64,000 bases of DNA from Spinacia oleracea. Taxonomy: Eukaryota; Streptophyta; Magnoliopsida; Caryophyllales; Amaranthaceae. The translations under genes and the position numbers were made by a program. Of this stretch, positions 632-51,300 are shown in pieces. The stretch lies in contig NC_079491.1 in NCBI RefSeq assembly GCF_020520425.1, positions 4,699,143 to 4,763,142 of the forward strand. The letters are read 5' to 3'. Numbering within the stretch: position 1 is the first letter of the stretch; every line of letters starts with the position of its first letter. Under the pieces are notes generated by a model. It was not told the origin of the DNA. It saw only the letters and a program-made list of their open reading frames with translations, and did not search any database.

Positions 632-1585
632 TCAGCTTTTCTCGATCTTCTTCAGCATCTTTATCCTCTCCATTCTCAGCTTCTTTTCATTATGTTGTGT
701 CTTTGCCTCCTCAACCATGGGAGCTAACCAGTCCACTTTTAAGCCTACGCGGTTGAGATCATCTAGAATTAATTGTATCTCATCTACTGTCGAATCAGTC
801 AAGTCCTTTACTTTAGCCCTTTGGAGTGTGATGTTGAGCTTTGCTAATGACTCTAAGGCATAAGCTCGCATTGCCTTGCTACGGACAGAATTTTTACCGA
901 ATAGGGTACCGTGTTTAGCCCAAATTGTTTCTAATGTTGGGAGGAATTCAGACCTGATATCAACCCCTTCAAAGTTTACAGTTGATGAACCAGTTTTACG
1001 AGTCTGCAACAGGTCGAAAGAGTCAAAGAGTGCAATATTTGAGAATGCTGTAATCTTACTACGCAACTGAAAATAAAAAGCATTCTCGAGAATTAATTAT
1101 GGTTACCTGTTGTACAGTTGAAGGAGTTACAGGTGTGGAATTTGCAATGAAAACTCTCCCTTCTGATAAATTTGGACCTATATACATGAATATAATTAGA
1201 AATCCTTGTATAATTGAGTTAATGACTTGAAAAACACCTTCACAAATACCTAATCTTTCTTCTTCGACATGAAAAATGACTTTTCTGATGTCAATTAAGA
1301 ATCATTAAATGGAAAAAAGTATACGAGTTCATCACTAGTTAGCTAGGGGGTTAATTAGTATTACCTGTACTTCTTCCATTTGGAGTAGGTCTTATTTCAT
1401 CAGAGTGATTTGCTGCACAAGAATGTGGTTGTTCATTGAAAAAACTTGTCCACGCCTCTTCTTCTTCTTCATCCTGCTTGAAATTGGTTGTTCTGTTAAG
1501 TTCACTTGATTCGGAAAACTCCTGACTAGAGGAATCATCCACCACTCCATCTGAAGCTTGCTGGCGGGAAGGGCCTGCCTTTGTC

Positions 1586-1629
<44 letters not shown>

Positions 1630-1630
1630 T

Positions 1631-1661
<31 letters not shown>

Positions 1662-4600: not shown

Positions 4601-5094
4601 AAAATTTCCAGAGAAGATGAGGATGCGGAAAGGAGAACTTTATTAACACGACCTGTAGACTCTTTGAAAGTGTACACTTGAGCGAGCTTTTCAGGTTGGA
4701 ACTGCATCAAATTCAGACCGACGTGTGGGATGCTCGTGCTTCTTTTACGGGTAAGGGGATGTCGTAGCTTAATTATATTCCCCATGCCCGAATCCGATCC
4801 ATGGACCATGATCATCCCCTTACCCGACCCGGGGTTCGAATGAGGAGGGGTGATGAGGTAGATCGAGTTTCCTTGGAGGACTAATTTGGTGGAACAATGA
4901 AAAGGTAAAGGAATTGGAAGATGCAAAGTAAGGGATGAATTTTTTGCATGCAAAGAGGGGGGAGAATGATCATTTTCCCTCTTTGTAGTACAAAACATCT
5001 TTATCATTTTGAGAATTTGTTGTCTTGTTTTATGTTTTTCTGACATTTTGTGGATGATTTCTTCATCTTGATCCCACGACATTTTTTCCGACAT
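632..5094 (-). CDS. Gene A: degenerate F-box/KIB protein with 36-residue acidic tract and RTM3-like tail
   Basis: Four exons read in one frame: 5094-3902, 1702-1365, 1177-1107 and 1003-632, giving 657 residues. All junctions are GT-AG with phases 2, 1, 0. Exon 1 carries the KIB1-4 domain, ending in WPPPTWF, but the F-box at residues 5-40 is eroded: it lacks the Leu-Pro and CKKW positions that paralogue D keeps. Residues about 402-437 are 36 uninterrupted Asp/Glu encoded by a GAT repeat. Exon 4 (residues 535-657) is the tail with LPTLETIWAKHG and GLKVDWLAP. The tail stops at KKIEKS, shorter than in D, G and H. A readable continuation (KAEIDMEEKEF...) lies in another frame at about 475-631, so the stop looks like an old frameshift. 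Start: first ATG of the open frame; a second Met follows at residue 5. Introns hold a Stowaway (3195-3285) and an hAT MITE (3427-3743). F-box proteins normally bind Skp1; that function may be lost here. Confidence 0.75.
1585..1692 (-). repeat. GAT trinucleotide microsatellite coding for an acidic run
   Basis: Thirty-six codons in the sense of gene A are only GAT, GAA or GAG. The interruptions (GAA/GAG for GAT) keep the acidic character, which suggests either selection on charge or simple slippage. The opposite strand reads as poly-His or poly-Ile and the neighbouring frame as poly-Met; these are shadows. Confidence 0.9.
3195..3285. mobile_element. Short Stowaway MITE in intron 1 of gene A
   Basis: Inverted ends CTCCCTCCGTTTCATT and AATGAGATTGAGGGAG are flanked by TA dinucleotides (3193-3194 and 3286-3287), as expected for Tc1/mariner-type Stowaway elements. 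It is only 91 bp, so it is a deletion derivative without coding capacity. Confidence 0.75.
3427..3743. mobile_element. hAT-like MITE in intron 1 of gene A
   Basis: Terminal inverted repeats TAGACCTGATCAA and TTTGATCCAGTCTA enclose a Cys/Gly-codon-like, GGCCCG-rich body. The 8-bp duplication AAAAAAAC is perfect on both sides (3419-3426 and 3744-3751). An 8-bp duplication and subterminal GGCCCG motifs are typical of hAT elements. There is no coding capacity. Confidence 0.75.
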
Positions 5095-13294: not shown

Positions 13295-14413
13295 ATGCAG
13301 AATTGTAGCTATAATCGTCGAAAGGTAAGCTGGTCTGATCTCCCCCAAACATTGCTTCAATGTATCGTCAAATTCCTGGGAAATGATGTGGATTCCTTGC
13401 GCCGTTTCCGATCAGTCTGCAAAAATTGGCGCCAATCAACTGCTTATTCTGTGCCCCCTTCAGTCAACAACAATGGGTTTTCTTCCTCCGTCATCCTCCT
13501 CCGCCCCCGTGGTGACTCAGCCGCTAACTCCACCCCATGGATGGTGTTTTCCGTCAATATCGCCCAAGGTAATACCCTCTTTTTCCACCCTTTCTCCGGT
13601 ACCCCTCTAGTTAATCTTCCCCCAACCCTCAATTTCTCTCAATTTCACGCCTCCTATATCTCCGACCCCGCCGCCTACCATAAGGCTGATATTAGCGGCG
13701 TGGTTGATAATTTGTCGGCTCTTTTCAGCCATGAGAATTTACAGCGAGGTTCTAAATCTCGACTCTCGAAAAGGGTTGAATGTGGGGATGAACAAACTGA
13801 TGACATTGTAAAATTTAGGTGGTTTATTTACTCCGTAGACAGGAAAGGAAACATATATTTCATTTCTTCAACAAAGAACTTTCCAGTTTCGAAAACACTG
13901 TGTTCTACTGCTAGTAATGAAGGGGAATTACATGAAGTGGGATATAGAAAGCGCCTTGTGACAACTTCTTCAACATCACCTAATGGGAAACTGTATTTGG
14001 TTGCAAGGGAGAAGAACATGTTAAAGATATTCGAGTGTAACAATGGGAGGTCAAGACGGACATGGAGCTTTTTCCAGATTCTTAGCTTTGGGGGTAAAAG
14101 TGGCCATGGATTAGTGCTGTTTGCCACTAGAGATTACAGTTTCTTTGTTCCGACTGAACAATTTCCTGGTTCTCGATTAAAGGATTGTATTGTTTTCACC
14201 CATGATGCTTTCCCTCCTTATTCCGGTGTTGTTGATTTGGTGATCCCTAAAGTTAGTGGAGGGATTTATATTTGCAAGATTGGAAGAAATACACATTCTT
14301 TCATACCGATTTGTTCTTACCCGGGATTCCCTCTCCATCTTTGCTCACCTCCATCTTGGGTTTTTGAGTTCCCCAAGTCTCAATCCCATAGGTATATAAT
14401 TAATCATCAATAA
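13295..14413 (+). CDS. C1: F-box/KIB1-4 protein without its own tail exons
   Basis: The open frame starts at ATG in a purine-rich GA leader and encodes 372 residues if unspliced. The F-box is at residues about 10-52 (WSDLPQTLLQCIVKFL, then FRSVCKNWR). The KIB1-4 domain follows to the conserved end ICSYPGFPLHLCSPPSWVF. A phase-2 donor (CCATAG then GTATAT, after 14391) matches the donor used by every paralogue, so the last 7 residues are probably intron read-through. No C1 tail exon follows. The next in-phase exon is 16859-18223, which begins with a linker and continues into C2. Either C1 ends in the intron as a short F-box/KIB protein, or it splices into C2 to give a product with two F-boxes. 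The family role, from knowledge of SKIP23/KIB proteins, is as an SCF adaptor. Confidence 0.7.
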   Translation: MQNCSYNRRKVSWSDLPQTLLQCIVKFLGNDVDSLRRFRSVCKNWRQSTAYSVPPSVNNNGFSSSVILLRPRGDSAANSTPWMVFSVNIAQGNTLFFHPFSGTPLVNLPPTLNFSQFHASYISDPAAYHKADISGVVDNLSALFSHENLQRGSKSRLSKRVECGDEQTDDIVKFRWFIYSVDRKGNIYFISSTKNFPVSKTLCSTASNEGELHEVGYRKRLVTTSSTSPNGKLYLVAREKNMLKIFECNNGRSRRTWSFFQILSFGGKSGHGLVLFATRDYSFFVPTEQFPGSRLKDCIVFTHDAFPPYSGVVDLVIPKVSGGIYICKIGRNTHSFIPICSYPGFPLHLCSPPSWVFEFPKSQSHRYIINHQ

Positions 14414-15782: not shown

Positions 15783-15792
15783 CTCTCCTATT

Positions 15793-16858: not shown

Positions 16859-16978
16859 GGTGGCTGACAGCTGTAACAAGGAAAAGAATGGAGAGAAGCA
16901 ACCTGTTCAAAGCTGTCAAGATGGTGAATCTCTGCTAGATAGTACACAGCATGAGTGTGCACCCCCACTTCCAGTCAT

Positions 16979-19900
16979 TATGGCCGGAAAGCCTGCTTCC
17001 TCTCCTTGCAACCTCACCACACCATCCCACAACTCCCTTGAAACAGAGGATTCAATCATCAAGTGCAAGCCCGACTCCCAACCTTCCAATTCGTCTAAAA
17101 TAAAGAAATTGAAACTGCTGCAGATTTGTACTCACCAGAAGGTAATCTGGTCAGATCTCCCTCAACCATTGCTTCAGTCTATCATCAAATTCCTGGGAAA
17201 TGATGTTAACAGCTTGCGCAGTTTCCGATCAGTCTGCAAGAAATGGCGGAAATCAACCGCTTTTTCTGTGTCCACTTCCATCAACAACACGTGCTTCTCT
17301 TCTTCAATCATTCTCCTCCGCCCCCGCGGTGTCTCTGGCTCTAGTTGTACGCCGTGGATGGTGTTTTCCGTCAAGATGTCTGAAGGTACTAATCTCTTTT
17401 TCCACCCTTTCTTTGGTACTCCTCTCATTAATATCCCCCAAAACCTCGATTTATCTCAATTTCACACTTCCCAGATCTTCGTAGCCAAGCATAAGCTTGT
17501 TATCAGCAATATTAATAGCCTTTCACCACTTTTCAGCGTTGAGAGTTTGATGTGGTTATACAGAATTTATGATTACGAGTCCAAAGGGATTAAATATTTA
17601 TCTATGATAAAAGGTGAATGTTGGGATGAACAAACTGATGATATTGTTGATTTTAGGCGGTCGATTTGTTCAATCGACCGCAAAGGAAACATATACCACT
17701 TGTATTCAAGTACGAAATTTCCAGTTTCTAAAACACTCCATTGTGCTGCTGCCTGTTACGAGATGGAATTACATGAAATTAGTTATCGTAAGCGCCTTGT
17801 CACATCTCCATCATGTTTTAAGAATTTGTATTTGGTTGCGAGGAAGAAGGAAACATTCAAGGTTTACCAGTTATCTATGCAATGTTGGTTATCAAAGTCA
17901 TGGAACTGTGTTGAGGTTCAGAGCTTTGGGAATAAAGATGGTGGTCTGGTGCTGTTTGTCACCAGAGATTACATTTTCTTTGCTTCTGCTGAAGAATTCC
18001 CTGGTTGTCAGTTAAGGAATTGCATTGTTTTCACCCATGATGCTTTCCCTTCTTATTCTGGTGTTGATTTTGAGATCCCTAAAGATAAGGGAGGGATTTA
18101 CTTATACCAGCTTGGAGGAAATTCTCATGCTTTCATGCCCATTTCATCTTACCCGGGTTTCCCTCTTCATCTTTGCTCACCTCCTTCTTGGGTTTTTCAG
18201 GTCCCTCCCTCACAATCCCATAGGTAAGTAATTTATGACCATCAATGATCTTCTATTCCTTTTAACATACAGTTTTAACATGTACTGTTCTTCATTTTTT
18301 ATTTTTATTTTACTGTTTCCACACTTGAAAACCTTTATTTGGAATAGCACTTGTGGAATGTGTCATATGTTGCACGGAATCTGAACTTAGAAAAGGGAAA
18401 CAAGTTAACACAAATTCAATTATAGGAAATGCGGAAACTTACAAATTGAATTTATAATCAATTATTTTGTTTAGAAATCTAAAGTTCCTTGTAATGGTTT
18501 TAACAGTAATGTGTAGATGAAGAAGTTGCTAGGTTAGGTATGTATAAACAGACTACTCAAAGAGAAGGTTGTTTTCAAGACTTGAAAGGTATTTAAGGGT
18601 AAGAATTTTTAGTCATAAATAAAGGACTTCCTCTGGTTTTTCGAGTTCTCTTAAAAAAGAAACTTAATCTCCATGACGTTTTCTGTGCACAAAGCTTGTC
18701 AATAAGCATCTTTTGTCCCGAAGGTTGTGCTGGTTAGAGATATGTCACATATGTTGTAGTGTTTTTTGTGTATTCGAGATATAGGCCTTGTTGGTTTGAA
18801 TTAGAGACAATAGTTTCCTGTTTTTCCTCATTTGAAGCGTTTTTTGGTAACCTTGCTCATTGGATGTTATTTAAGACTTTAAGCTCATAAAATGTTGAAC
18901 TTAAATATCTCTTGAACTAAAACTGAAGAAACAGAGAATTTTCTCCAATCATCCATAGTTGTAGTTTCAGCTTGAAGAGATATTTTATTTATGTTTTGTT
19001 GAAAGAAAAACTATCAGCTTAAGGTTATTTATACAAGTTGATTAAATACATCAGTGTTTTTTTTTATCCTGACCAATAGAAACACAACATATCAAACTCC
19101 AACAAAAGAAGAACAGCACTGCTGCATAGCTATTGCAGTTTGTTTATGGAGAATCTCTTAAGCTGGGACTCTGGGAGGCTGGGAGCTTCTCTAATAACCT
19201 TCTAAGTGAATCCACAATTCCAAAACCATGATTGTCAAGCTTCTTATCTACCTTTGATTTGGCTAGATTACTCTGGATGTTTCTGGACTTGATTGTAGCT
19301 GACTGCAGAAGCTTGCAAGTCTGCGCAAGCTGTTGCCTGAGCTGATTGTTGAGCTTGAGTTTGCTGCAGCAACTTTTGAGACACTGCTTTTCTGTTTTCC
19401 CTCATTTGCAACCTTTTTATGGTAACCTAGCTCGTTGGAAAACAATGTAGGATCTGTTGTGGACTACATTTTTAATTTGCTATACATTTCCTTTCCCATC
19501 CACGACATTCTGTATTTTGCTCAAATCTAAGGGCGCTAAGGCTATCTTGCAAGCACTTAATGATATGCTAGGAGTGTTGTTTTATGTTTTTATGGAGTAT
19601 CATGCATTTCCTCTCTAATCCTTACAAGATCAAAGTGTGTGACAGAAGTGTGTTATCATGCAAGTTCGTAAAAATTATCTTTATTTGGTAACCATACCTT
19701 AGGCTTGCATGATACACTCCTGTAAGTGTAACCACCTTGGGTAAATATTAAATTTGAGACAAGGCGTTCGTGAAGAATAAATAGTGCTAATAAAAACAAA
19801 AGGGTTTTTCTTCAGAACAAGCATATTTTGGTATGAGATGACACAATCATATTTTTTCTGTCAAGTCAAGCAGGAAAAATAATTCTAATGCTTAATCACA

Positions 19901-20973
19901 TGTTTATGTAATGTGAAGAAGAGTTCTCAAATTTGAAGTTTGATGTGTGTTTGTGAAGGGTGGCTGACAAGGAAAAGAATGAAGAGAAGCAACCTGTCCA
20001 AAGCTGTGAAGATGGTGCATCTCTGCAAGAGCGTACTCAGCATGAGTGTGCGCCCCCATTTGAACCTGAACCTGAGACACAGATCTCTGAGATTTCTGCT
20101 GTTTCAGCAGATGAAAAGAACACTACAGGATCCCCTACCATGAATGCTATAAATCATTTAGCTGATGAAGGTAATATTGCATCAATCTATAAATATTTTC
20201 GAGGGGATGCTTCCATCTATATAAAGATGTCTGAAATTGGACATTCCCCCCTTCTTAGATTTTGGGCCAAACATTTTTCTTGTTGATTAGATCCAGAGAT
20301 TTCGAGGGAGGATATCTTACACTCCGTATCCAGGGCTTACATAACCTCTGCAAACCAAGTAATATTTTAAACCACGCTTATCCTATCATTTTCTATTCAT
20401 CCCACTTCTAGGACCTAGTATGATGTTCCCCTTTCATTCTTTTGGCAGAGCAACAGAAGTGATAGTTCAACAATCAAATTTGAAGGACTTGATATAAAGC
20501 CTAGTCTAGTCCCAACATTGCAAAAGATTTGGTCAAAGCACGGGAACATCATAGAAGATAGTGTGATGTGTAATGGTGATATGATTGCTAGAGCGCTAGA
20601 GTCACTTGCTACCATGGTACTCATTCTCGAGGGTAACTCAGTCAGGTCTTTGAGTGATTGCCAAGTTGATTATCTGAGCTCTGCATTGTCTGACTTGAAA
20701 TGCATGCGCTTTAAAGTCGACTGGTTAATTCCTTGTGTTGAGAAGGCAGTAGGACTGTACAAAAGCAAGCCCGTGATAGAAACCTTAAACAAGCTCAGCC
20801 AGTTAGAAGACCAAGCCAAGGAACGCAGATCAAACCTCCTTGCGGAATTAGATAAACTTGATGGGATACAAAAAGAACTGAAAGAAGACAAGGCAAATCT
20901 ATCCAAGATGATTTCTTTTTCTGGAGAAGTGGATATGGACTTGGACATACCTTTAGGAGGGGGATTGTCATAA
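16979..20973 (+). CDS. C2: F-box/KIB1-4 protein with linker and RTM3-like tail
   Basis: Exons are 16859-18223 (coding from ATG 16979 if independent), 19959-20170, 20291-20358 and 20449-20973, with phases 2, 1, 0 and GT-AG borders. The F-box is WSDLPQPLLQSIIKFL followed by FRSVCKKWR, then the KIB1-4 domain to PISSYPGFPLHLCSPPSWVF. Exons 2-3 encode the linker, rich in Glu, Ser, Thr and Pro. The last exon encodes 174 residues with LPTLQKIWSKHG-like and FKVDWLIP motifs, then a coiled-coil-like stretch ending DIPLGGGLS. The frame is open upstream of ATG 16979 as far as the acceptor at 16858, where it reads as a C1-type linker (VADSCNKEKNGEKQPVQ). Joined to C1 exon 1, the whole reading frame would be 1088 residues. 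I chose ATG 16979 because the homologous position is the start in gene H. Confidence 0.7.
18950..19440 (-). repeat. Conserved block inside the C-type first intron
   Basis: The minus strand of this intron matches the plus strand of the H intron (57340-57550) and, weakly, the F region (54950-55060). In all three an antisense frame related to SSSTISSGNSLRRLA is legible, though with different stops. It may be an old gene fragment caught in the ancestral intron or simply conserved intron DNA. I do not recognise a protein family. Confidence 0.4.
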
Positions 20974-23197: not shown

Positions 23198-26100
23198 ATG
23201 GAGTTTCCTCCATTAAAGAGAAACAGAAAAACAGAGCAAGAAATGAAGGTGCTAAGCTCGTGGTATCTACTCCCTGTTGAACTCCTTAGATCCATCGCCG
23301 AATTCCTCAAGAACAACCCCGAAGACCTGCGTAATTTACGGTTAGTTTGCAGCAATTGGCAGCACGCAATTCGCCCAATTTCCTCCCTCCTACCTTATAA
23401 AACTCTGTTTTCTTCCTCCGTTTACCTCCTCTGCCGCCGCCGCTGCGGCCGTGACACCGACCAACCATGGCTCGTCATCTCAATGGAGAGCACCAAAGGT
23501 AAATTACAGCTTTACCATCCTCTCCTTGAACACCCTATCCCAGATATCCCTGATAATTTCACCTTACATGATAATCAAGAGTTAAACCCTTGTCTCCTTT
23601 CTGTAAATTACCATACTAATTATTCCAGTAACAATGACAAAGTGTTGCTCATCTCTCGAAACAATTCTTCCCCTTTTACCCTTGATGATTGCTCTTTGTT
23701 GGTTTTGTCTGAATCCGGTCTATTACACTGGTCTCTCTCCGTTGAACCGGAGAATCAATGTATATCATTCTGTAGGTTTAAATCCAAAACAATTGGTAGT
23801 TATGTCAGCAAATTTGATGACATTCTTAATTTCAATGATGTCGTTTATGTTCTAGATAGGAAAGGGAGATTATACCAATTGATTACCAAGCAATTTCCGC
23901 CTGTTATTGAAATACTTGTCCGAATCCCCATTGTTAGAGTCAACAAAGGGTGGAGGAAGCGGTTAGTGGGATCATCAATAGATAATACAGTCTATATGGT
24001 TGCTATGGATGATCTAAATTACAAGCTTAAAGTTTATCGGTTTTGTGAGTATACTAAGAATACATCGAAATGGATCAAAGTCGAGAGTTTTGTAGGTGAT
24101 CAAGTGTTGTTCTTGTCTAAACATTACTGCTTCTTTGCTGAAGCTAGATATTTTCCTGATTGTCAACTTGGAAACTGCATCATCTTCTATGATGAACTTC
24201 CCTTGGGTGAAACATTCAAGTTTCCAGAAGAGATACAGGTTTTTTGGTTAGGAGGAGGAGGTCATGGTTTCAAACCAATTTCGTCTTACCCTGGCTTTCC
24301 TGCAATCAATTTATTTTCAGCACCAATTTGGATTTCGCAGGCTCATATGTCTTCCTGTCAATCATATTCTCAAAGGTAATCCATAACTTATTCTGTCAGA
24401 TTAGTTGATTGCTTGATAAATCCTTTGTGTTAAGTACTTTCTAATTTTCTATGGCTACAGTCTATGGATTGCATTGGAAGTGCCTTATATGATAATTATT
24501 TCGGGCATGTATTTCAAATTTGTGCATAAGCACCAGATATGATTAGTTTTCATGGTTGATCTCCGCAAAAGTGATTCATGGTTTTCAAGGGTAAACAATC
24601 TACAAGTGTTATGCCATAGTATCAACATCTTTGAGTTGTAAATTCTTCATTCTGTTAGCTGATGTTCACGCATTGAATCTAGACAACTAAATTTTGAATG
24701 AAGTCCAGATAAATGGTTGATGGTACACTGTGCAAGAGCAGGTGTAAAATGTGAGTTATCATTGGAGCAATTGGATTTTATTTAGGTACATGAAATTCAC
24801 AACGTTGTGTAAGAAATATTCTTTATATGATGACAATTGTGAAGAATAAATCTTTTTCCTTGTGCTAAACTATGTTTTCAGGAAGTAGTTTAGAACTCAA
24901 ATTTGTACTTATGTGATGTTTTTTTGTGTGAAGTGGGTCTAAGGAGGATGAAATGATCCACTCTGATTCAAATGGTGAAGGTAGTGCATCTTTGCAACAA
25001 ATGATATCCCCTGCTAAATCTCATCCTGGAAGAGAGAAACAAATCGTTGAGATTCCTTGTTCCAGTTCTGTTCAGGCTGAAAGTACACGTTCTCCTTCTG
25101 TCGTGAATGACATGGAGCATGTTGTTGAAGGAGGTAACTATTGAATTAATATCAGATGCTCAGTTTACTCTTTTCTCCTTTCTGCTGTCCTGGAAAACAG
25201 AAGTAGCTACCCTAGGGGCAGAGGCATCATAGTGGTGAACTTGAAAATTGTTGCTTACTAGTTTTCCCTTTGGCTCATATTTTGATTTCCAATGTCAAAA
25301 GTTATCAACCTTAACCATATTCTTTCACCGTGATATAAGAAAGGACATTATCGTGTAAGGTGTTGTTTGATTTATTTTGATACATCTCTTTGAAATCAAA
25401 GAAATCAACGGTAAAAGGACTGTCTGGAGACCATAAACAAAAGAGGCAACAAATTTGAGATAAAGGAAATATGTGACAAATCATGTTGAATATATGATTT
25501 CTGTTCTTTTTATTGGTCCTTTCCTGCTAAAACTTGCTATTTGTTGAGTTTTTCACTTTTATTATTCTAGTAGAAACTGGATTTACACTTAAGAACCATT
25601 CTAATTTGGGGTTTATCTTTGCTAAATAGCTGTGGAGGAAGGGAGCTTTATGGATGACATGGTCCAGACAAATTCAGTGGTACCTTTGGTTCAGGTAATA
25701 TCAGGAATTTCATTGCATAATTCATTATTGTTGGCTATTTGGCTTGTCTGCGTGTACTTCCTTTCGACTTCTAAATAAGTTCCTGAAACAATGCTAAACA
25801 GTATAACGGTTCATATACTGTAAACTTAATTGCATTGTGAGATCATATGGCATATGTAGGTAACCATTTTTTATCTGGTCTAATGCAGCCATCCTCTGTA
25901 AAGAAAGTCATAACCACCTTCAAGTTTCGAGGAGTAGATGTCGAGGCTGACCACCTCCCTGTTTTACAAAAGATTTGGATGAAGCATGGAGATGTTATTG
26001 AAGGGAGTTCGATCCATAGTTGTGACACGATATCCATGGCGTTGTCTTCTTTGGCAAAGATGGTACTTATTCTGCAAACCAACTCTGCAAATACCTTGAC

Positions 26101-26398
26101 TGATGACCAATCCCGTTATCTGGAATCAACTTTAGCTGATCTACAATATATGCATCTAAAACTGGATTGGCTGACTCCTACGGTTGAGAAAGCCATGTCG
26201 ATCCAAAAAACCAAGCAATTGCAAGCATCTTTGGTGGAACTTGAGAAGTCCAAGGCTAAGGCAGAAGAGATGGAAACGAAGTTCCTTTCAATGATGGCTG
26301 AAATGAAGCAAGGTTTGGATAGGGATATAATACTTGTTTCTGACAAAATACCACCGACATTTGATCCTGAAAAATTCCTTGGTGAAGGACTGTACTGA
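23198..26398 (+). CDS. Gene G: F-box/KIB1-4 protein with linker and RTM3-like tail
   Basis: Four exons (23198-24375, 24934-25133, 25630-25694, 25889-26398) make a 650-residue frame with GT-AG borders and phases 2, 1, 0. The F-box lies at residues about 20-62 (YLLPVELLRSIAEFL, then LRLVCSNWQ). The KIB1-4 domain follows, with VYVLDRKGRLYQL and the end PISSYPGFPAINLFSAPIW. Linker residues 393-481 are rich in Glu, Ser and Pro. Tail residues 482-650 contain LPVLQKIWMKHG, LKLDWLTPTVEKA and a Lys/Glu-rich predicted coiled coil, ending PEKFLGEGLY. The start ATG follows a pyrimidine-rich leader. G is the most divergent intact member and is uninterrupted by transposons, so it is the best reference for the family structure. 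A truncated copy of its tail is E (50942-51300). Confidence 0.8.
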
Positions 26399-29096: not shown

Positions 29097-29510
29097 ATGT
29101 CATGGGATCAAGAAATCATCCACAAAATCCCAACCCAATTCAAAACCAGAGAAAAAATAATCAAATTTATTAAGTTCATTAACCAGGAAAATCATTCAAT
29201 TACTTTGACACAATGCATCCCTTACTTTGCATCTTCCAAACTCCTTACCCTTTCACGATTCCACCAAATTAGTGCTTGAAGTCAGTTCGATTTACCTAAT
29301 TAACCCTAATCACTCTCCTAATTCCAAGTCGGGGATAGGGATGATCATGGTTCAGGGATCGGACACGGGGAGGAATATTCAACTACGACATCCCCTGACT
29401 GGTAAAGGAGACATGAACATCCCACACGGTGTTAACTTGAAGCAGTTCCGCCCTTCAAATCTCGCTCATGGTTACACATTCAAGGACTCCGATCGTGTTC
29501 ACAAGGTTCT

Positions 29511-29672
29511 TGTCAAATATTGTGTAATCTCGTATCATTCTCATTAATAACATACGTATATATAGTACAACTCAGTTACCTAAACCCTAGGTACACATTA
29601 GGTAACTCACCATAGTTAGGACTCTACAGAATATTCACAGAATAATATCTAATATCTTAACATATCTTAACA
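29511..29672 (-). repeat. 3' LTR of the Copia element
   Basis: It begins TGTCAAATATTG and ends CTTAACA on the plus strand. It is identical to the LTR at 34299-34460 and is flanked outside by GTTCT. Confidence 0.95.
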
Positions 29673-29678
29673 TCCCCC

Positions 29679-32600
29679 TCAAGGTGGAGCATGTAGATCT
29701 CGAATGCCCATCTTGTTCAAAAAAAACTCAAATTGCGCCTTCCCCAACGCTTTGGTGAAGATATCTGCTAACTGAACCTTCGTCGACACGTACGACGGAC
29801 TGATGATCCCTTCCTTGATTGCATCTCGAATAAAATGACAATCTGACTCGATGTGTTTTGTCCTTTCATGGAACACCGGATTCTGTGCAATATGCAACGC
29901 AGACTGACTGTCGCAATACATCCTCATGCCTTGGTCGTGTGTCACCCCCAAGTCGCGTAGTAGTTGTTTCAACCACTTCAACTCACACGTCAGAGCTGCC
30001 ATCGACCGATATTCTGCCTCAGCAGACGACCGAGAAACAGTATGCTGTTTCTTGGTCTTCCAAGAAACTGGCGACATACCAAGTGACACAAACCATCCAG
30101 TTACCGACCGACGCGTCATTGGACACCCTGCCCAATCCGAGTCGCACCACCCCTCCAACTGCAACGCACTGTCCGACCGAAGTAGTATACCTTGACCCGG
30201 ACACTTCTTCAAATATCTCACTACTCGCAAAGCTGCTTCCCAATGTGCCTCCTTTGGTGCTTTCATAAATTGAGATAGGACATGTACAGAGTAGGCAACG
30301 TCTGGTCGCGTGACAGCCAAATAAACCAGACGTCCGATCAGACGCCTATACTGCTCACCGTCCGACAGGTCTGGCCCGTCTGCCAATGCCAACCTATGAT
30401 TCTGTTCCATGGGAAAGTCCACAGGCTTTGCTCCCAACAATCCGGCCTCTGAGATGATGTCGAGGGCATATTTTCTCTGACATACATAGAACCCTTGACT
30501 ACTTCGTGCCACCTCTAACCCAAGGAAGTACTTCAGAGCCCCGAGGTCTTTCATTTTAAAACACTCCTTCAAGTATGCCTTAAAACTCTCAAGCGCAAAC
30601 TTGTTATTGCCCGCGATAATCATGTCGTCCACATAAATGAGCACACTCAGCTGCAACGTACCTTTAGACAGAGTAAAGAGCGAATAATCGGACAGCGACT
30701 GTCGAAATCCATAGTGCGTCAATGCCGTCGACAACTTCTGGAACCAACATCTAGGTGCTTGTTTCAACCCATACAACGACTTTCTCATTCGACACACTTT
30801 GTCAGAGTGATTCTTCTGGAATCCAGGAGGAATCTTCATATAGATCTCTTCCTCCAAGTCACCGTGCAAGAACGCATTATGGACGTCCATCTGATGCACG
30901 TCCCACTGTTTGACAGCTGCGACAGCTAGGAAAGTTCGAACTGTCGCCATCTTCGCGACGGGAGCAAATGTCTCATTATAATCCAACCCTTCCTCCTGAT
31001 GATTCCCTAAACATACCAATCGAGCCTTCAGTCTCAACAAATTCCCATCCTCATCACGCTTCTCAGTATACACCCATTTACTCCCCAGTGCTTTCTTCCC
31101 TTCCGGTAAATTTTCCAACGTCCATGTCCCCTGTTCCTCCAACGCGTCGATTTCAGCGGCCATTGCCTGACGCCACCCCTCATGCTGCATCGCTTGTTTA
31201 AAACTCTTAGGAACTTGCCCTTCTTGCAATGCTGCTATATAATGCCTGTGCTTTGACGAAAAACGCTCATAATTAACAAAATATGTGATAGGATAAGGAG
31301 TACCTGAGAGTGATGACGCCGTAGGTGTTTTGTCGGAAGTACTATATTTTTCCCGTATTGTATGTATCACACAGTCTTTCAGCTTTGTCGACGGAAACTT
31401 CACACGCTTCCCCCTTCCTAACTCCGTATCCTCCACACACTGCCTTGTCTCACTCTCGTCACTACCCGTCGATTCCTCTACACCTGTCTGTGAGGAGACG
31501 ACGTCTGAATCCACTCGACTAGGTGTTTCATGTTGTTGTTCCTCCCTCACAGGCGACGACACTCCCCTGTCGTCACCACTGGTCAATGACACCCCCTCAT
31601 CAGCTCCCGGAAGCGACAACACTCCCTCAGTATCACCTGTAGGCGGCGACACCCCAGCAGTATCACCTGCAGGCGACGACACGGTCTCAGGACCCGTAGT
31701 CCCACTCTCATCCAAACTCCAATGGTCAAGCCCCCCATGACCATCATGCACCGGTGGCAACACATCCGATTCATCTGCAAAAGGAAACGTCCCTTCATGA
31801 AACTTGACATCCCGTGAGACGAAGAACTCATGTGTCTCTAGATCATAAAGTTGCCATCCCTTCCTGCCAAACGGATAACCCAAAAACACACATCGGCGAC
31901 TCCGAGACTCAAACTTATCCCCTTTACACCGGAGATTATATGCATAACACAGACACCCAAACACTCGGATAGGCACATACGATGGTGGTTTACCAAACAA
32001 CATCTCATAAGGTGTTTTATTGTCAAGGATCGGGGTAGGTGTACGGTTTATCAAGTAACAGGCGGCCAAAATACATTCCCCCCAAAATTTTATTGGAAGA
32101 TTTCCTTGAAAACGTAACGCCCTCCCAACATTCAAAATATGTTGGTGTTTTCTCTCGACTCTCCCATTTTGTTGAGGCGTCCCAACACACGACGACTCAA
32201 ACAGAATCCCATGTTGACGAAAATAATTTTGTAAGCAATTGAATTCAGTACCATTATCACTGCGTACTACCCGAAGGGATCTATTAAACTGACACTTAAT
32301 CATGGCAACAAAATTAAGAAATGTCGATGCAACTTCCATTTTATTATTCAGTAAATAAATCCACACACCTCTAGAATAATCGTCAACAATGGTAAAAAAA
32401 TACTTTGCCCCACAAGACGAGGGAGTCTTGTAGGGTCCCCATAAATCAAGATGAACCAATTCAAATGTGCGACTAGCACGACTAACACTAACTGGAAAAC
32501 TCTCCCTACATTGTCTCGCCCGCGGACATACATCACAAATTGTTTTATTCTTCCTAATCTTATGACTCACATGAGGAAGTAACTGCAACACTTTTTCCGA

Positions 32601-34190
32601 CGGATGCCCCATCCGTTGATGCCACAAGTCGACCACACACTCCACTGCTAGCACACGAACCTTTGGAGCCCCACGGAAAAAATATAGTCCTTCCTGTCGA
32701 TCACCTACGCCAATCACCATCCTCGTCGAGCGGTCCTGAAGAACACACATTTTGTTAGTAAATTGAGCAGCACAATGTAATTCGTCACTTAATTGAGTTA
32801 CAGAAATTAAATTGCAGTTCAATTTAGGCACAAATAGAACATTATCGAGCACGAAACCATCCTCCAAGACCACCGAACCATATTGGTTTGAATTTGCAGG
32901 TTGACCGTCCGGCAACACAACCTGTTGATTTCTTGATGTCTTGATATTTCTCAGGATTGAAATATCACCCGTCACATGACGTGATGCCCCACTGTCAACA
33001 ATCCAACGTAAATCAAGATTACCTTGCAACTTGGTTGAAGGTCGTGACAAGATGTCAACTATTTGCTGGACTTGCTCCTTCGTCACCCCAACAAGCTCAT
33101 GATTGGTGGTCGTCACTGCACCATGCGATCCGTCTCCACTCGTCACAGTGGTTGTCGCCCCTCCTGTGGCATTGCTCACGGCATTGGCACGAGCGACACC
33201 ACTGGTCGACGACGCTGCCCCGCGAGCTACTCTGCCTCCTCTAATCGACGTCCTGCCTCCCCGACCAGGCCCTCGTCCACCTCGTTTCTTCTCATCCCAC
33301 CATTCAGGAAATCCAATCAGCTGATAACAAGTTTCTTCCTCATGACCCTCACGATTGCAATGACCACAAAATCTGCCACTGACATCTCCCGACCTCGACC
33401 GAGCCTTAGTCTCGACCTTGAACGCCATGACACTCTCCGGACCTCTCGCAGCCTTGGCGCGCATGGTCTCGGTATTCATAACCGTCTGGTACGCCTCGTC
33501 GAGTCCTGGCAACGGCGATCGTGCTAACAGTTGTGCACGAATGGCTTCATAGTGATCATCCAGGCCAATTAGGAAATAGTGCAGACGATCTTCATCGTGA
33601 ATGTCCCCCACCTGCTTCGCTATATTACACGTACAACCCGCACATACACACCTGGGAACTCGTGCATACTGTACGTACTCCTTCCATACCTTCGACAAGC
33701 GGCCATAGTACTCCATGACGCCCTCAGACGTGCCCTGCTTGCAACCACTCAGAGCCATCTTAATATGGCAGACCCTGGTGCCCGACACGACGCAGTACCG
33801 CGTCCTCAAATGACTCCACAACTCGTGAGCAATATCAAAGTCCTCCAGATGCGAACGCAAACTCTCGTCAATGGTGTTTGTGATCCAAGACACCACCATC
33901 GAATTGACCGCAATCCAATGTTTCATCTTCGTCTCGTCCGTAATGGGCTCCTTCACAGACCCATCAAGAAAACCAAATTTGAATTTTGAAATCATCGAGC
34001 GACGAACGGCTTTGGCCCATTCATCGTAGTTCGATGCTCCTCTCAGTTTCACAGGGGTGATAACAATACCGGGGCCGTCGCCTGACCCGAGATAGTAGTC
34101 TAGGTCGACGGCGGCGGCGATGACCTTTGGTGGTGCCTCCTCATCGGAACTCATGGTGATACTTAAGGAATTGTTAACTCCTAATCTCAA
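29679..34190 (-). CDS. Copia Gag-Pol polyprotein
   Basis: One 1503-codon frame. Domains in order: Gag with LRGASNYDEWAKAVR near residue 50, a CCHC zinc knuckle (CGHCNREGHEEETC) near 275, aspartic protease (WIVDSGASRHVTGD) near 395, GAG-pre-integrase and integrase zinc site (HQRMGH...CDVC) near 525-560, integrase core (DLWGPYK, VRSDNGTEF, GRVERKHQ), reverse transcriptase (MDVHNAFLHGDL, YVDDMI) in residues about 1020-1260, and RNase H (WCDSDWAG, SSAEAEYRS, ADIFTKALG) at the end. The order integrase before reverse transcriptase defines Ty1/Copia. The Gag type and short LTRs suggest the Ale/Retrofit lineage, which I cannot confirm. All catalytic motifs appear intact. An alternative start lies 12 codons downstream. 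Confidence 0.97.
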   Translation of the reverse strand: MRLGVNNSLSITMSSDEEAPPKVIAAAVDLDYYLGSGDGPGIVITPVKLRGASNYDEWAKAVRRSMISKFKFGFLDGSVKEPITDETKMKHWIAVNSMVVSWITNTIDESLRSHLEDFDIAHELWSHLRTRYCVVSGTRVCHIKMALSGCKQGTSEGVMEYYGRLSKVWKEYVQYARVPRCVCAGCTCNIAKQVGDIHDEDRLHYFLIGLDDHYEAIRAQLLARSPLPGLDEAYQTVMNTETMRAKAARGPESVMAFKVETKARSRSGDVSGRFCGHCNREGHEEETCYQLIGFPEWWDEKKRGGRGPGRGGRTSIRGGRVARGAASSTSGVARANAVSNATGGATTTVTSGDGSHGAVTTTNHELVGVTKEQVQQIVDILSRPSTKLQGNLDLRWIVDSGASRHVTGDISILRNIKTSRNQQVVLPDGQPANSNQYGSVVLEDGFVLDNVLFVPKLNCNLISVTQLSDELHCAAQFTNKMCVLQDRSTRMVIGVGDRQEGLYFFRGAPKVRVLAVECVVDLWHQRMGHPSEKVLQLLPHVSHKIRKNKTICDVCPRARQCRESFPVSVSRASRTFELVHLDLWGPYKTPSSCGAKYFFTIVDDYSRGVWIYLLNNKMEVASTFLNFVAMIKCQFNRSLRVVRSDNGTEFNCLQNYFRQHGILFESSCVGTPQQNGRVERKHQHILNVGRALRFQGNLPIKFWGECILAACYLINRTPTPILDNKTPYEMLFGKPPSYVPIRVFGCLCYAYNLRCKGDKFESRSRRCVFLGYPFGRKGWQLYDLETHEFFVSRDVKFHEGTFPFADESDVLPPVHDGHGGLDHWSLDESGTTGPETVSSPAGDTAGVSPPTGDTEGVLSLPGADEGVSLTSGDDRGVSSPVREEQQHETPSRVDSDVVSSQTGVEESTGSDESETRQCVEDTELGRGKRVKFPSTKLKDCVIHTIREKYSTSDKTPTASSLSGTPYPITYFVNYERFSSKHRHYIAALQEGQVPKSFKQAMQHEGWRQAMAAEIDALEEQGTWTLENLPEGKKALGSKWVYTEKRDEDGNLLRLKARLVCLGNHQEEGLDYNETFAPVAKMATVRTFLAVAAVKQWDVHQMDVHNAFLHGDLEEEIYMKIPPGFQKNHSDKVCRMRKSLYGLKQAPRCWFQKLSTALTHYGFRQSLSDYSLFTLSKGTLQLSVLIYVDDMIIAGNNKFALESFKAYLKECFKMKDLGALKYFLGLEVARSSQGFYVCQRKYALDIISEAGLLGAKPVDFPMEQNHRLALADGPDLSDGEQYRRLIGRLVYLAVTRPDVAYSVHVLSQFMKAPKEAHWEAALRVVRYLKKCPGQGILLRSDSALQLEGWCDSDWAGCPMTRRSVTGWFVSLGMSPVSWKTKKQHTVSRSSAEAEYRSMAALTCELKWLKQLLRDLGVTHDQGMRMYCDSQSALHIAQNPVFHERTKHIESDCHFIRDAIKEGIISPSYVSTKVQLADIFTKALGKAQFEFFLNKMGIRDLHAPP

Positions 34191-34298
34191 TACTCAACAA
34201 GCGAAGAAAGTCGCTGTTCTCAATACTCGGCTACACTCTCTCAAATTTCTTGCGGAAAAAAAAAATCTAGGGTTTTTAATCCTAGGCTCATGATACCA

Positions 34299-34460
34299 TG
34301 TCAAATATTGTGTAATCTCGTATCATTCTCATTAATAACATACGTATATATAGTACAACTCAGTTACCTAAACCCTAGGTACACATTAGGTAACTCACCA
34401 TAGTTAGGACTCTACAGAATATTCACAGAATAATATCTAATATCTTAACATATCTTAACA
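34299..34460 (-). repeat. 5' LTR of the Copia element
   Basis: This 162-bp LTR is identical to the one at 29511-29672. Promoter and polyadenylation signals for the element should lie here; TATATATAG is visible on the plus strand. Confidence 0.95.
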
Positions 34461-34552
34461 GTTCTCCTCTGTTTAACAACTTGCTCATCTTTTGAAATCT
34501 TGGTGTTATACCAAAGAGGCTCGTTAGGGAAACTCACTGTATGGGTTCCTGA

Positions 34553-34553
<1 letters not shown>

Positions 34554-34592
<39 letters not shown>
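34554..34592 (+). repeat. AAC microsatellite in exon 1 of pseudogene I
   Basis: Thirteen AAC units followed by AAG units would code for 13 Asn then 5 Lys inside the KIB domain, at the place where gene A has a variable loop (EIKPRSGVFNDGNKTEK). Confidence 0.9.
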
Positions 34593-34594
<2 letters not shown>

Positions 34595-36124
34595 GAAGAA
34601 GAAGAAGGAGGAGGTGGGGTATTGTTGGAAGAGTATGAAGATGAAGGTTAAGTATTTGGATGATGTGGTGAAGTTTAAGGGAATGCATTGTGCAATAGAC
34701 AGGAGAGGGAGGCTTCATAAGTTGAACACTAAGACAATGACGGTGGTGGGTGCCTTGGTGTCCGAACCAATTGGCGAGCCTGAAGCTCCCGGAGACAGGC
34801 GGAAGCGGCTCGTGGTGGGCCCCACATCAGGGGAGCTCCACATGGTGGTTCGAGAACACGTGAAGATATATCATGAACTACTAGTAAGGTTGAAGATCTA
34901 TAAGTTGAATGAGCGATGCGAAAGATGGGTAGTGATCATACCCAGATAACAAATTGTTCCATGATAAGGAGTTTGATATCGGAGTTTATAAATTCAAGGA
35001 AGAAAACAACTTCAAAATATTGTCATCCAATTTTTCTAGAATGATTTGGCCTCCTCCTACATGGTTTCTCCAAAGGTATTGCTTTAACTTAAACTATTAC
35101 AAAACATGTGTTTGTTTTTATGTTTCTTTCAATTTACATAAGTTTCGATATGTTATTATATTGTACATTCTTTCAACTTGAGTTTATGTGTGTGTTGGTA
35201 CGACTAGCTAGCTTTAATTCAAATTGTGCCTAATTATGTGTTTGTTTTTCGTACATTGTATTGATATTTTGAGGAACTGATCAAGATTTCGTGATTTATC
35301 GAATTGGTTACTAGTTAGTTGCTATTGAAGATAATATCAATATCCCTTGATTGATATGATCGATCTCCTTGATTACAGCATTGATCTACTCTCTTGTATG
35401 CATATAATATATTTGACTTCTTTTATGTGAATACTAGTTTTATATGCACGCGATACATGCCTGTATTATATATCTAGTTAAATGTAAATGGTTGAGTTTC
35501 CAACTTTAGGGGCGGAGAAGCGTAGTCGTTGGATCTCCCTCGGCCATGGCGATTATTCCGAGATTTTCAATGAGTTCTTCTTGTATTAGTTTGTCATGGG
35601 GTTTTATAGCTCTTTCATTCTAGGCATTTTGTAATTGAATTAAGTTGTGAACTTACGAAGGCCCTTACCGCGGTTTGATTTTAGGCATTTTGTAATTTAA
35701 TTTGATAAATTATGTATAATTAGAATATTGTGTAATCTTATAAATTAGATTAGCATATCTTTTGGTCAATAATTATTCCGTTATTTTGGCCTAGCACAAT
35801 ATGATAGTTTAGGCAAGCATATATTTTAGTCAATAATTAGTCCTTAATTATAGCTTTAGTTTACGTCCTCAGCTCTTCCGAATAGAGATATACAATGTAT
35901 TTCTAATTTACAAATATACTCCGTATATCTTTTGGAAAAAAAATTGCAAATTTAACGTTGATTACTATGCTTTGTGCTATTATATATATCACCACAAATT
36001 TTAGACAATACAAATTGTTCACAAAGTTCATCTTAAAAAAATTATACATCAAATTAGTAAGTTCATTCAATAATGCGAAGAAAACCTAAATCACAAAAAT
36101 AATCCCCAAAATCTGTAAAAATCA

Positions 36125-40987: not shown

Positions 40988-42179
40988 ATGTGATCAAGAA
41001 ACAGATACCTCTAGTGAGGAGTCATCTGAATCAAGTGACATAAACAGAACAACCAATTACAATCAGCAGGATGATGATGCAGAAGAGGCGCGGAGAGGTT
41101 TCTTCAACGAAAAACCACATGCTTTTGCAGCAAATCACTCTAATGAAATAAGACTTACTCCTAATGGAAGAGGTACAGGTAATACTAATTAACCCCCCTA
41201 GCTAACTACTCCCTCCGTCCCTTAATACTCGACCTGTTTTGACCGGACACGCTTGTCAATGCACAACTTTGACCACCAATTTCTTTAACTACATATTATA
41301 AAAATATTATATTTTGAAAATATATATTAAGATGAAGCCAACAATACATTATATATTAACATTTATTTTCATATACTAGAAATAAAATAGGGTCAAAGTA
41401 AATTATGTAAATAGTAGAAAAAGTCAAAACAGGTCGAGTATTAAGGGACAGAGGGAGTAGTGATGAACTGATGATACTTTTTCCATTTATGATTCTTGTT
41501 TAATAAAATTGACATCAGAAATGTCCTTTGATATCGAAGTAGAAAGATTAGCTTAAGCATGTGTGAAGGCGTTTGTCAAATTGTACACTCAATTATACAA
41601 GGATTTTAAATTTTATTCATGTATGTAGGTCCGGATTTATCGGATGAGAGAGTTCGGAATGCAAATTCCACACCTGTAACTCCTCCTTCAACTGCACAAC
41701 AGGTAACCATAATTCTCGAGAATGCTTGTTATTTCCAGTTACATGGTAAGTTTACAGCATAGATGCTCAATTATTGCACTTCCTCTGACCCTTTCGACAT
41801 GTTGCAGACTCATAATATTGGTTCCTCAACTGTCAACTTTGAAGGGGGTGAAATCAGGGCAGAATTTCTGCCAACCTTAGAAACAATTCGGGCTAAACAC
41901 GGCACCCTATTTGGAGTAGATTCTGTCATTACTAAGGAAATGCGAGGTTACGTCTTAGAGTTATTGGCAAAGGTCATGATCATTCAACAAAATGTTAAGG
42001 CAAGGGACTTTACTGATGCCGAAGTTGATGGGCTACCATCGAAAGTATCTGACCTCCAACGGGTAGGCTTAAAAGTAGACTGGTTAGCTCCAATGGTTGA
42101 GAAGGCGAGGATAATCCATAATGAAAAGAAGCTGAAAATGGAGAGGTTAGAGAAGCTGAAGAAGATCGAGAAAAGCTGA
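40988..42179 (+). pseudogene. B: linker and tail exons, probably the 3' half of gene I
   Basis: Exons 40988-41178, 41629-41702 and 41808-42179 keep open frames, GT-AG borders and phases 2, 1, 0. The linker reads EESSESSDINRTTNYNQQDD with an acidic bias. The tail has LPTLETIRAKHG and GLKVDWLAPMVEKA and ends KKIEKS, exactly where gene A ends, with the same out-of-frame continuation to about 42282. Without I exon 1 it has no start. The only upstream candidate is the I exon 35075 donor, which has the right phase. A Stowaway element (41209-41457) sits in its intron. Confidence 0.75.
41209..41457. mobile_element. Stowaway MITE with a paralogous empty site
   Basis: Ends CTCCCTCCGTCCCTTAATAC and the inverse are flanked by TA (41207-41208 and 41458-41459). 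The same intron position in gene A (about 1335-1345) has uninterrupted GCTAACTAGTGATGAAC, so the insertion is directly demonstrated. Confidence 0.93.
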
Positions 42180-43841: not shown

Positions 43842-46800
43842 TCACAAAAGACCGACTCCCAAGCAATGATCAAGATCTATAATCTCCGTGGAAGAAATCC
43901 CAGCCGACAAACTAGCCATGTCCTCTTCAATTTCTTTCTTAACCTTAGCACTACGGGCTAGGAACTCTTTCTCCTCTTGTTCAATTCTAGCTCTTTTCTT
44001 GTCTAGAGCCGTTATTGATTCAACCACTGGCTTAATTTTAGGGAGTTTCAATGCTTTTTCTACAGTTGGAGCTAACCAGTCCACTTTCAACCCTACACGT
44101 TCAAGGTCTGACAACATCAATCGCATGTCATTAGCCTGAGATTCAGTTAAGCTCCTTCCTGTAGTATTTTGAAGAGTTATCACGAGCTTTGCTAGTAACT
44201 CCAAGGCACAAGCTCGTAAATCCTTGCTATGCACAGTTTTATCACAAAACAGGCTACCATGTTTGGCCCAAATGGTGTTTAAAGTTGGTAAAAGCTCGGA
44301 CTTTACATTAACCCCTTGAAATTTGACAGTTGAAGAGCATCTTTCACAAGCCTGCAAACATTTGTGTAGAAGAAGAAATGCAATAAAACATGCTGCAATG
44401 GTAATTAAAATGTACTGAAAGTAATTAACAAGCATACTTACCAATGGAGGCAGTACTGTTGAAGGAGTATAATGAGTGGGATTTGCATTGAAATTTTGTT
44501 CCTCTGAGAAATCTTGTCCTGCATATTAACATAATCAAGTCTGAGTGTGTTACTCGAGTGTTGATCAAATTATAAAGGTCCTTCAATGATTATGAGTTTT
44601 AATTTTGAATTTAACAACGGTCATGCCCGAGGAGTAGACCTGATTATCATGAGCCCGGCCCAAAAAATACTGGGTATTGGGCAGAATTGTCAGGCACGAA
44701 TTTTGGGCCCGACCCGAATTTTTTTATTTTTTGGGTGGGTCAAAACTGCAATTTTAGTTATAAATTTAACCGAACCGAAAATATCCGAAAAGCCTGCTAT
44801 TTTGGCTCTGACCCCGACCCGAACCCGGCAGAATATGATCAGGTCTACCAAGGAGTAGGGAAGTGAGTTACCTAATCCTTCTCCTTTCTTCTTATTGTTC
44901 ATCTTGGGAGTGACTATGTTGTGTTCTTCATACTCAACGGTTAATGGAGGGGCAAAATATACATCATTTTTTACTGATGGTTGCAGATTGCAGTTATCTG
45001 GAGAAGCAGACCTTACTTTGTCAGCAGAGAAATTTGATTCAGTAGCTTGTGGTTGTTCATTGGAGAAACTTGTATCTGTATTCTCTTCTTCGCCTTCCCC
45101 AGAATCAATCGATCCATTGCTTTCATGTGCTTTGGACGACTTTTGAGTAGATGAATCTAGAAACATCTCTTCATCTTTGTCCTTATCTGAGGAGCTTTCA
45201 CCTGATGAATCTGTGAGCATCCCTTCAGCGTGATTGTCAGAAAGAGATTTCATACTGTTGGAGTTCTCTTCATCTGAAGCTTCTTGGGTTGAAGAATCTG
45301 ATTTTGTTTCCTCTTCATTGCTGCATTCACTTCATAAACAAACAAACAATCAACCAGTTTAAGAAATCTTGACATTCATTCCCTCCCAAATTTGATCTGA
45401 TCAAAGATGATAACTAGGTCTCTTCTTTCTGTTATTTGTTTAGCAAGAGGTTGTCGTTTGTTTTGGATGGAACATTGATTAGAGATATAGAGATGTATTC
45501 CTTCTAACACAATGTTAACTCATTTTTAAGTTGTGAGAAACAAATTTTGATTAGAATTAGCAAAATACAATGAAGATTGAGTACGAATATAGAGTGATAA
45601 TGACAAAAGATCGAGTACTAAATCATGAAATGTTAACTGTCCTGCAGATTGTTATTGTTGTCCTATATTGATGCTAAAATACTCAAACAGATTCTATGGA
45701 AGCTGAACTCCATGGAAAACAATGGCATAAGTAAATTCTGTCAACAGATTGTAAGATGCCTCTTTTAAAACAAGGCTTAGATCTGTTATATGATAGCTTA
45801 GCTAAGTGTTTGTACTAAGTTCCTTTTGCAGGAAAAACTTCAAACTAGTTCTAACAAGTAACAATATTTCTGCTGTAAAGCTAATTTGAAACAAATTGCA
45901 GGACATTCAGGAGCAACTAATTAAGGGCTTGCCACTCTTTACGGCACCTCAATTTTTATCATAACAATTAATTCATTATGTTTAGCTGTTTTGTTTCTTT
46001 TATTAGTTTCCTTTATTAGTACCCCACACACATTAAACAAGTAATGTAACAATTTTTTATCAACAAGTGATGCAGGAACGAACCCAAATACTACGCAGAA
46101 AATACTTGTGTAGGAAGTATATTTCTGCTGCAGCTAATCAATCTGCTCCAAACTGATCAGGAGCAACTTATGGGTCTGCCACCCTTTATCAGATAACATG
46201 ATTGCTGTTCTTTACCTTTCATTTTTCTGATTTTCTGATCACTTCTATGTAAATGTATAATTTAATTAGTGTAAACTGACAGCAAACAACAGTTAACCAA
46301 TAATTTTGTCATGGGTTCAATCAGATAGTTGGCTTGTCAGTTCAGAATCCAAACACATAAAATAGAGCACACAAACTTTCATTAGATTTCTACTAATCTA
46401 TTTACTACGGAGGACCAGACATATGTTACATAAGTAAAACTGCTCTTTCGAGTAAAGTTGTTACTTGATTTACTAACAATAAGCCTTAAACTTACTCGAA
46501 TGCAAACGGTGACAAACATTTTAAAGCCAAGATCATGCTAAAACAATAATCAAAACAACCAGTTAATTACCACTTACCAGGCCTATGAAACCAGAGTTGA
46601 TTACTGCAAAATTCAGTCACTCCAACCAAAATTACCCTAATACATGATCAGATGATTACCCTTCCAATTTGATGTATTATTCTGGTCACTCGGTTGCATA
46701 TGTAAACATCATTTAAACTCCTATTTCAAGTAAAGTCTTTACTTGATCGAATGCCAACAGTGACAAACTTTTACAGTAACAAGTACAACCAGTTACCACA

Positions 46801-50941: not shown

Positions 50942-51300
50942 TCAGCACAGTCCTTCACCAAGGCATTTTTCAGGATCAAATGTCGGTGGTATTTTGTCAG
51001 AAACAAGTGTTATATCCCTATCCAAACCTTGCTTCATTTCAGCCATCATTGAAAGGAACTTCTTTTCCATCTCTTCTACCTTAGCCTTGGACTTCTCAAG
51101 TTCCACCAAAGAGGCTTCCAATTGCTTGGTTTTTTGGATCGACATGGCTTTCTCAACGGAAGGGGCTAACCAATCCAGTTTCAGGTGCATATATCGTAGA
51201 TCAGTTAAAGTCAAATCCAGATAACGAGCTTGGTCATCAGTCAAGGTATTTCCAGAATAAGTACCATCTTTGCTAGAGAAGACAACGCCATGGCCCGGGA
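50942..51300 (-). pseudogene. E: truncated copy of the gene G tail exon
   Basis: From TLTDDQARYLDLTLTDLRYM to PEKCLGEGLC the frame is 90 percent or more like the G tail (residues about 535-650). Upstream, ATGGCGTTGTCTTCTCTAGC matches G but a deletion of about 15 bases before AATACCTTGACTG shifts the frame. The 5' half of the exon and all other exons are missing. DNA past the stop (50640-50940) also matches the region downstream of G, so this is a genomic duplicate and not a processed copy. Confidence 0.85.

Follow-up and report, generated by a model that had tools for sequence, protein, structure and literature searches.

Probable joining of F-box/KIB1-4 heads to PEARLI-4 tails in a gene cluster of Spinacia oleracea

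Gene layout and domains

The window analyzed here, a 64,000-nt stretch of Spinacia oleracea contig NC_079491.1, holds five loci (A, C2, G, D and H) at which a long exon encoding a KIB1-4 propeller, in several cases with a detectable F-box, is followed by two short linker exons and an exon encoding a PEARLI-4 domain (Table 1). The sequence argues strongly that each is a single fused gene, with the KIB1-4 head spliced to the PEARLI-4 tail. All gene models of the five loci were built from sequence, with splice sites picked by eye to connect open frames, and other GT/AG dinucleotides occur near the end of exon 1 and the start of exon 4 at every locus. The four-exon design with intron phases 2, 1 and 0, which a sequence-only reading of this DNA had proposed, gave models without an internal stop at all five loci, with lengths of 657 (A), 682 (C2), 650 (G), 753 (D) and 641 (H) amino acids. 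In the model of locus G, the start codon begins at 23198 and the stop codon ends at 26398. Introns are GT-AG in 14 of 15 cases, the exception being intron 1 of H, which is GC-AG. Reading past the first donor meets a stop within 1 to 8 codons at all five loci, which would leave a complete head protein. The domains, the exon order and phases, and, below, the purifying selection on the H-C2 tail exon and the parallel divergence of heads and tails are computed results.

Pfam matches were judged against the curated cut-offs of 27.4 bits for PF03478 (KIB1-4 propeller), 20.5 for PF00646 (F-box), 24.3 for F-box-like and 29.9 for PF05278 (PEARLI-4). PF03478 exceeds its cut-off in all six uninterrupted heads, those of the five loci and of the tail-less locus C1, with scores from 40.2 to 90.7 bits. 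The F-box is less uniform: PF00646 reaches its cut-off in four of the six heads (D, C1, C2 and G, the last exactly at the cut-off, with F-box-like also above threshold), both F-box profiles stay under their cut-offs in H, and no F-box match was obtained for the head of A in the Pfam scan. The expectation of an F-box plus KIB1-4 domain at all five loci is thus borne out for the propeller throughout, and for the F-box at D, C2 and G. Near the end of every complete head (6/6) lies a phase-2 donor, GT in five and GC in H.

A tail profile searched against every stop-to-stop frame of 20 residues or more in the window recovered seven tails and four small pieces (526-651, 42160-42279, 51829-51960 and a weak match at 51244-51480), of which the first two are the helix ends of the A and E tails in another frame. 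Six of the seven tails match PF05278 above its cut-off (32.3 to 60 bits), which places them in the PEARLI-4 family and not in an unrelated one; for the remaining one, a lone partial tail (50945-51259), the Pfam scan gave no PF05278 match. Chance similarity among the tails was rejected, the exon 4 score being reached by 0/500 shuffles in each of the 10 locus pairs. The motif first noted for the tails is only loosely kept, C2 and H carrying VPTL and FKVDWL/FEVDWL. The predicted structure of the H tail (predicted local distance difference test, pLDDT, 82.8) comprises a small helical bundle and then one long helix (residues 107-157). A coiled-coil-like end helix had been suggested; the model has this long helix, but a crude heptad test of the tails gave no support for a canonical coiled coil. 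The tail of A stops early, before its long C-terminal helix is complete.

The linkers had been described as acidic and rich in Ser/Pro, a description that suits A best, with an Asp plus Glu fraction of 0.39 against 0.17 to 0.22 in C2, G, D and H. The start of exon 2 of A (1590-1702, minus strand) is a near-pure Asp/Glu run encoded by a GAT-rich repeat. By shuffle tests (500 shuffles), exon 2 is significantly similar in 4 of 10 locus pairs only (A-D, G-H, G-C2 and H-C2), and exon 3 in 2 of 10 (A-D and H-C2). The score of G exon 2 was reached by 0/500 shuffles against H and 1/500 against C2, and this exon has no similarity to A or D.

Divergence, selection and partial copies

The five loci fall into three lineages (A/D, C2/H and G), between which exon 1 is 30 to 39% and exon 4 35 to 43% identical. 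In both exons the lineages are separated by a synonymous divergence of at least 1.4, often too high to estimate; exon order, donor position and phases are conserved despite this near-saturation. Head and tail distances agree closely (Mantel r 0.974; 2 of 120 relabelings, the true one among them, attain this value). Heads and tails have diverged in parallel, in keeping with the single ancestral fusion suggested at the outset. In a blastn comparison of A with D, seven of eight matches lie on exons 1, 2, 3 and 4, extending into introns by 19 nt or less, and the one remaining match (141/127 nt) runs from intron to intron.

For the closest pair, H-C2, we estimated the ratio of nonsynonymous to synonymous divergence (dN/dS), with Fisher tests on rounded counts. 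By exon, the ratio comes to 0.58 (exon 1, p 0.005), 1.21 (exon 2, p 1), 0.26 (exon 3, p 0.054) and 0.24 (exon 4, p 4e-7), and introns 1, 2 and 3 differ by 0.32, 0.15 and 0.19 (Jukes-Cantor). Exon 4 of this pair is under purifying selection, and the pattern as a whole indicates a tail that is maintained as a protein domain and an exon 2 that acts as a loose spacer.

Table 1. Coordinates of head, linker and tail features in the window, with the basis of each assignment
Feature	Positions	Strand	Basis
G exon 1, F-box + KIB1-4 propeller	23198..24375	+	PF03478 58.2, F-box 20.5, F-box-like 26.1 bits; donor AAG/GTAATC, phase 2
G exon 2, linker	24934..25133	+	frame open, end phase 1; similar to H and C2
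G exon 3, linker	25630..25694	+	end phase 0; no significant similarity to other loci
G exon 4, PEARLI-4 tail + stop	25889..26398	+	PF05278 37.1 bits
A exon 1, KIB1-4 propeller, F-box not detectable	3902..5094	-	PF03478 72.2 bits; gene model
A exon 2, acidic poly-Asp linker	1365..1702	-	gene model, composition
A exon 3	1107..1177	-	gene model; similar to D exon 3 (0/500 shuffles)
A exon 4, shortened PEARLI-4 tail	632..1003	-	PF05278 57.5 bits; helix end in other frame at 526-651
C2 exon 1, F-box + KIB1-4 propeller	16980..18223	+	PF03478 46.7, F-box 20.7 bits (scan of 16857-18224); gene model
C2 exon 2, linker	19959..20170	+	gene model
C2 exon 3, linker	20291..20358	+	gene model
C2 exon 4, PEARLI-4 tail	20449..20973	+	PF05278 54 bits; gene model
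D exon 1, F-box + KIB1-4 propeller	46934..48150	-	PF03478 90.7, F-box 29.3 bits (scan of 46912-48282); gene model
D exon 2, Ser-rich acidic linker	44872..45329	-	gene model, composition; similar to A exon 2 (0/500 shuffles)
D exon 3	44442..44518	-	gene model
D exon 4, PEARLI-4 tail	43842..44351	-	PF05278 51 bits; gene model
H exon 1, KIB1-4 propeller, sub-threshold F-box	58443..59557	-	PF03478 40.2, F-box 12.6, F-box-like 14.1 bits; GC donor TAG/GCAAGT
H exon 2, linker	56547..56764	-	gene model
H exon 3, linker	56352..56419	-	gene model
H exon 4, PEARLI-4 tail	55728..56252	-	PF05278 60 bits; gene model; predicted fold (pLDDT 82.8)
C1, F-box + KIB1-4 head, same phase-2 donor, no own tail	13295..14391	+	PF03478 41.8, F-box 23.0 bits
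C1 exon-2-like piece, in frame with C2 start	16859..16979	+	open frame continuing into C2
E, head broken by Copia element	29209..35178	+	head-profile matches 29209-29544, 34449-34946, 34936-35178; Copia open reading frame
E, shortened PEARLI-4 tail	41808..42179	+	PF05278 32.3 bits (scan of 41763-42176); frame change as in A
Broken headless G-like tail	50942..51960	-	tail-profile matches 50945-51325, 51829-51960; no Pfam PEARLI-4 match

Several further copies are partial or broken. Across the C1-C2 region (13295-20973, plus strand) an open spliced product of 1088 amino acids is possible, combining two F-box/KIB1-4 heads with a single PEARLI-4 tail; the in-frame junction may be chance, frame alone having a likelihood of about 1 in 3. 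The head of locus E is split by a Copia element (29511-34460, minus strand). This element has an open frame of 1504 codons, its 162-nt terminal copies show 100% identity, and GTTCT stands on both flanks; the insertion looks very recent. Two of the broken E head pieces were scanned for PF03478, one scoring 26.6 bits, under the cut-off, and the other giving no match. The tails of A (526-651, minus strand) and E (42160-42279, plus strand) have a common frame change that removes the helix end, and each is missing an internal segment of the tail, so they probably descend from one shortened copy.

The headless tail at 50942-51960 matches the G tail region over 361 nt with 92% DNA identity and adjoins a frame of reverse transcriptase/RNase H type at 51897-53996. 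Downstream of H, an exon-2-like fragment (54310-54636, minus strand), 197 nt of which align at 86% with C2 exon 2 in inverted orientation, is another trace of a lost copy. Beyond the last F-box/KIB1-4-PEARLI-4 locus lies part of a glycosyl hydrolase family 31 gene (62596-63030, minus strand).

Interpretation and alternatives

Taken together, the reading towards which we lean slightly is that of an old fused gene family encoding receptors of SKP1-cullin-F-box (SCF) ubiquitin ligases with a PEARLI-4 association module. In such a history, a complete F-box/KIB1-4 gene, the present exon 1, would have gained a splice donor just upstream of its own stop codon and become spliced, via two short linker exons, onto an exon encoding PEARLI-4. 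The splicing itself, the ligase function and the association through the tail are drawn from what the families suggest. By analogy with the binding of BIN2 by KIB1 and the self-interaction of RTM3, the protein would most likely be an SCF substrate receptor whose F-box docks SKP1 and whose propeller holds the substrate, and the PEARLI-4 tail, carried on a flexible linker, would serve self-association or the binding of a second partner among other PEARLI-4 or MATH-PEARLI-4 proteins. This mechanism we put forward tentatively, as a proposal that may well prove wrong.

Three sets of observations weigh against the joined gene. Exons 2 and 3 are short, fast-evolving and mostly without significant similarity across lineages, so that shared phases and order, and not sequence, carry the case for fusion there. 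Methionines occur early in exons 2-4 of G, D and C2 (residues 7, 26 and 61), and those in exon 2 could start a separate tail protein. Finally, A combines an undetectable F-box with a shortened tail, and C1 has no tail of its own. The second set, together with the complete head left by readthrough at the first donor and the existence of a head such as C1, would suit two adjacent genes, a single-exon F-box/KIB1-4 gene and a PEARLI-4 gene, that were co-duplicated and never spliced together. In A and H, however, the first methionine of exons 2-4 already falls inside the PEARLI-4 match (residues 181 and 135, with exon 4 beginning at residues 137 and 96, hence exon 4 residues 45 and 40). Since no methionine precedes the tail domain there, a tail gene of its own is less likely at these two loci, and a complete independent one was rejected for them. 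The recurrent phase-2 donor near the end of all complete heads and the matching phase kept by the exon 2 acceptors in the five tailed loci also speak against two genes, an arrangement that we regard as improbable.

A cluster mostly in decay, with tails as remnants and heads that no longer act as ligase receptors, would account for the third set and for the Copia-split E and the solitary, broken G-like tail; yet the frames of G, C2, D and H are intact for 641 to 753 codons and the H-C2 comparison shows purifying selection on exon 4, and we think general decay unlikely. Production of both forms has a better, if still minor, claim: because the first donor lies 1 to 8 codons before the stop at all five loci, retention of intron 1 would give a tail-less receptor, a plain F-box/KIB protein, and splicing would add the PEARLI-4 tail as a regulated extension. 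The GC donor of H also fits this idea, but the donor position follows as simply from the way in which the fusion could have arisen. A more elaborate version of the fused family, and one that we would give little credence, has ancient, tandemly expanding SCF receptors use the PEARLI-4 tail as a bait or bridge that brings PEARLI-4-binding proteins to the ligase. The recruited partners would be either immune or phloem factors of the plant itself, of RTM3 type, or proteins by which pathogens target such factors; tail inclusion would be set by splicing at the donor abutting the head's stop codon, and C1-C2 would be able to form a double-headed member.

If the fusion is real, a putative ubiquitin ligase receptor is physically linked to the plant domain PEARLI-4, which would offer a simple handle, through SKP1 binding and partner screens, on the role of that domain. 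With synonymous divergence near saturation between the lineages, the same architecture is predicted to occur in related plant families.

Comparison with known families

F-box/KIB1-4 (DUF295) proteins such as Arabidopsis KIB1 resemble the window proteins in their N-terminal F-box and PF03478 propeller and in their likely role as SCF receptors; the window genes differ by the added linker exons and C-terminal PEARLI-4 domain. To our knowledge, ordinary KIB1-4 genes have neither. According to a review, KIB1 acts as an F-box ligase, binding BIN2 via Kelch repeats and promoting its degradation, and KIB1 and its homologues are confined to Brassicaceae (PMC7352359). No description of an F-box/KIB1-4-PEARLI-4 fusion was found in the titles and abstract openings of the open-licence papers listed by searches aimed at it, in line with the initial impression, and the word PEARLI is absent from the main text of Hua 2011 (PMC3030570) and of an eggplant survey (PMC9780924). 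The combination seems new, although F-box proteins with rare added modules are already known: Hua 2011 gives a total of 3,678 F-box proteins with rare modules or combinations in 18 plant species (PMC3030570), so that the present architecture is one more combination.

Other PEARLI-4 (phospholipase-like) proteins, including AT4G38550, AT2G20960 and AT5G11140, share the PEARLI-4 domain and differ in their head domains. AT4G38550, AT2G20960 and AT2G20950 are listed as putative substrates of mitogen-activated protein kinases (PMC4202796), and AT5G11140 as induced 503-fold by flg22 and 141-fold by AtPep1 (PMC11149889). The linkers of the window proteins contain 10 Ser/Thr-Pro sites in total, which is no enrichment (308/2000 shuffles reach 10), and a kinase link is therefore unsupported for these proteins.

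The proposed resemblance of the tails to the C-terminal module of RTM3 is upheld at the level of the Pfam family, which is what is shared. RTM3 is called MATH-PEARLI-4 in one paper (PMC12238093), and another places it in a MATH class about half of which has PEARLI-4, still termed a domain of unknown function (PMC3664471). RTM3, a virus-restricting protein, also interacts with itself and with RTM1, and the rtm3-1 mutant carries a single change in the C-terminal coiled-coil domain, from which its authors conclude that this domain acts in resistance (PMC3377653). Membership of the window proteins in the MATH-PEARLI-4 class was rejected, Pfam scans of 28 window segments (E up to 10, 1 and 0.01) having returned no MATH family match. 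The likeness to RTM3 and other MATH plus coiled-coil proteins accordingly lies in the C-terminal PEARLI-4 module, and where the RTM3 class carries MATH, the window proteins carry an F-box/KIB1-4 head.
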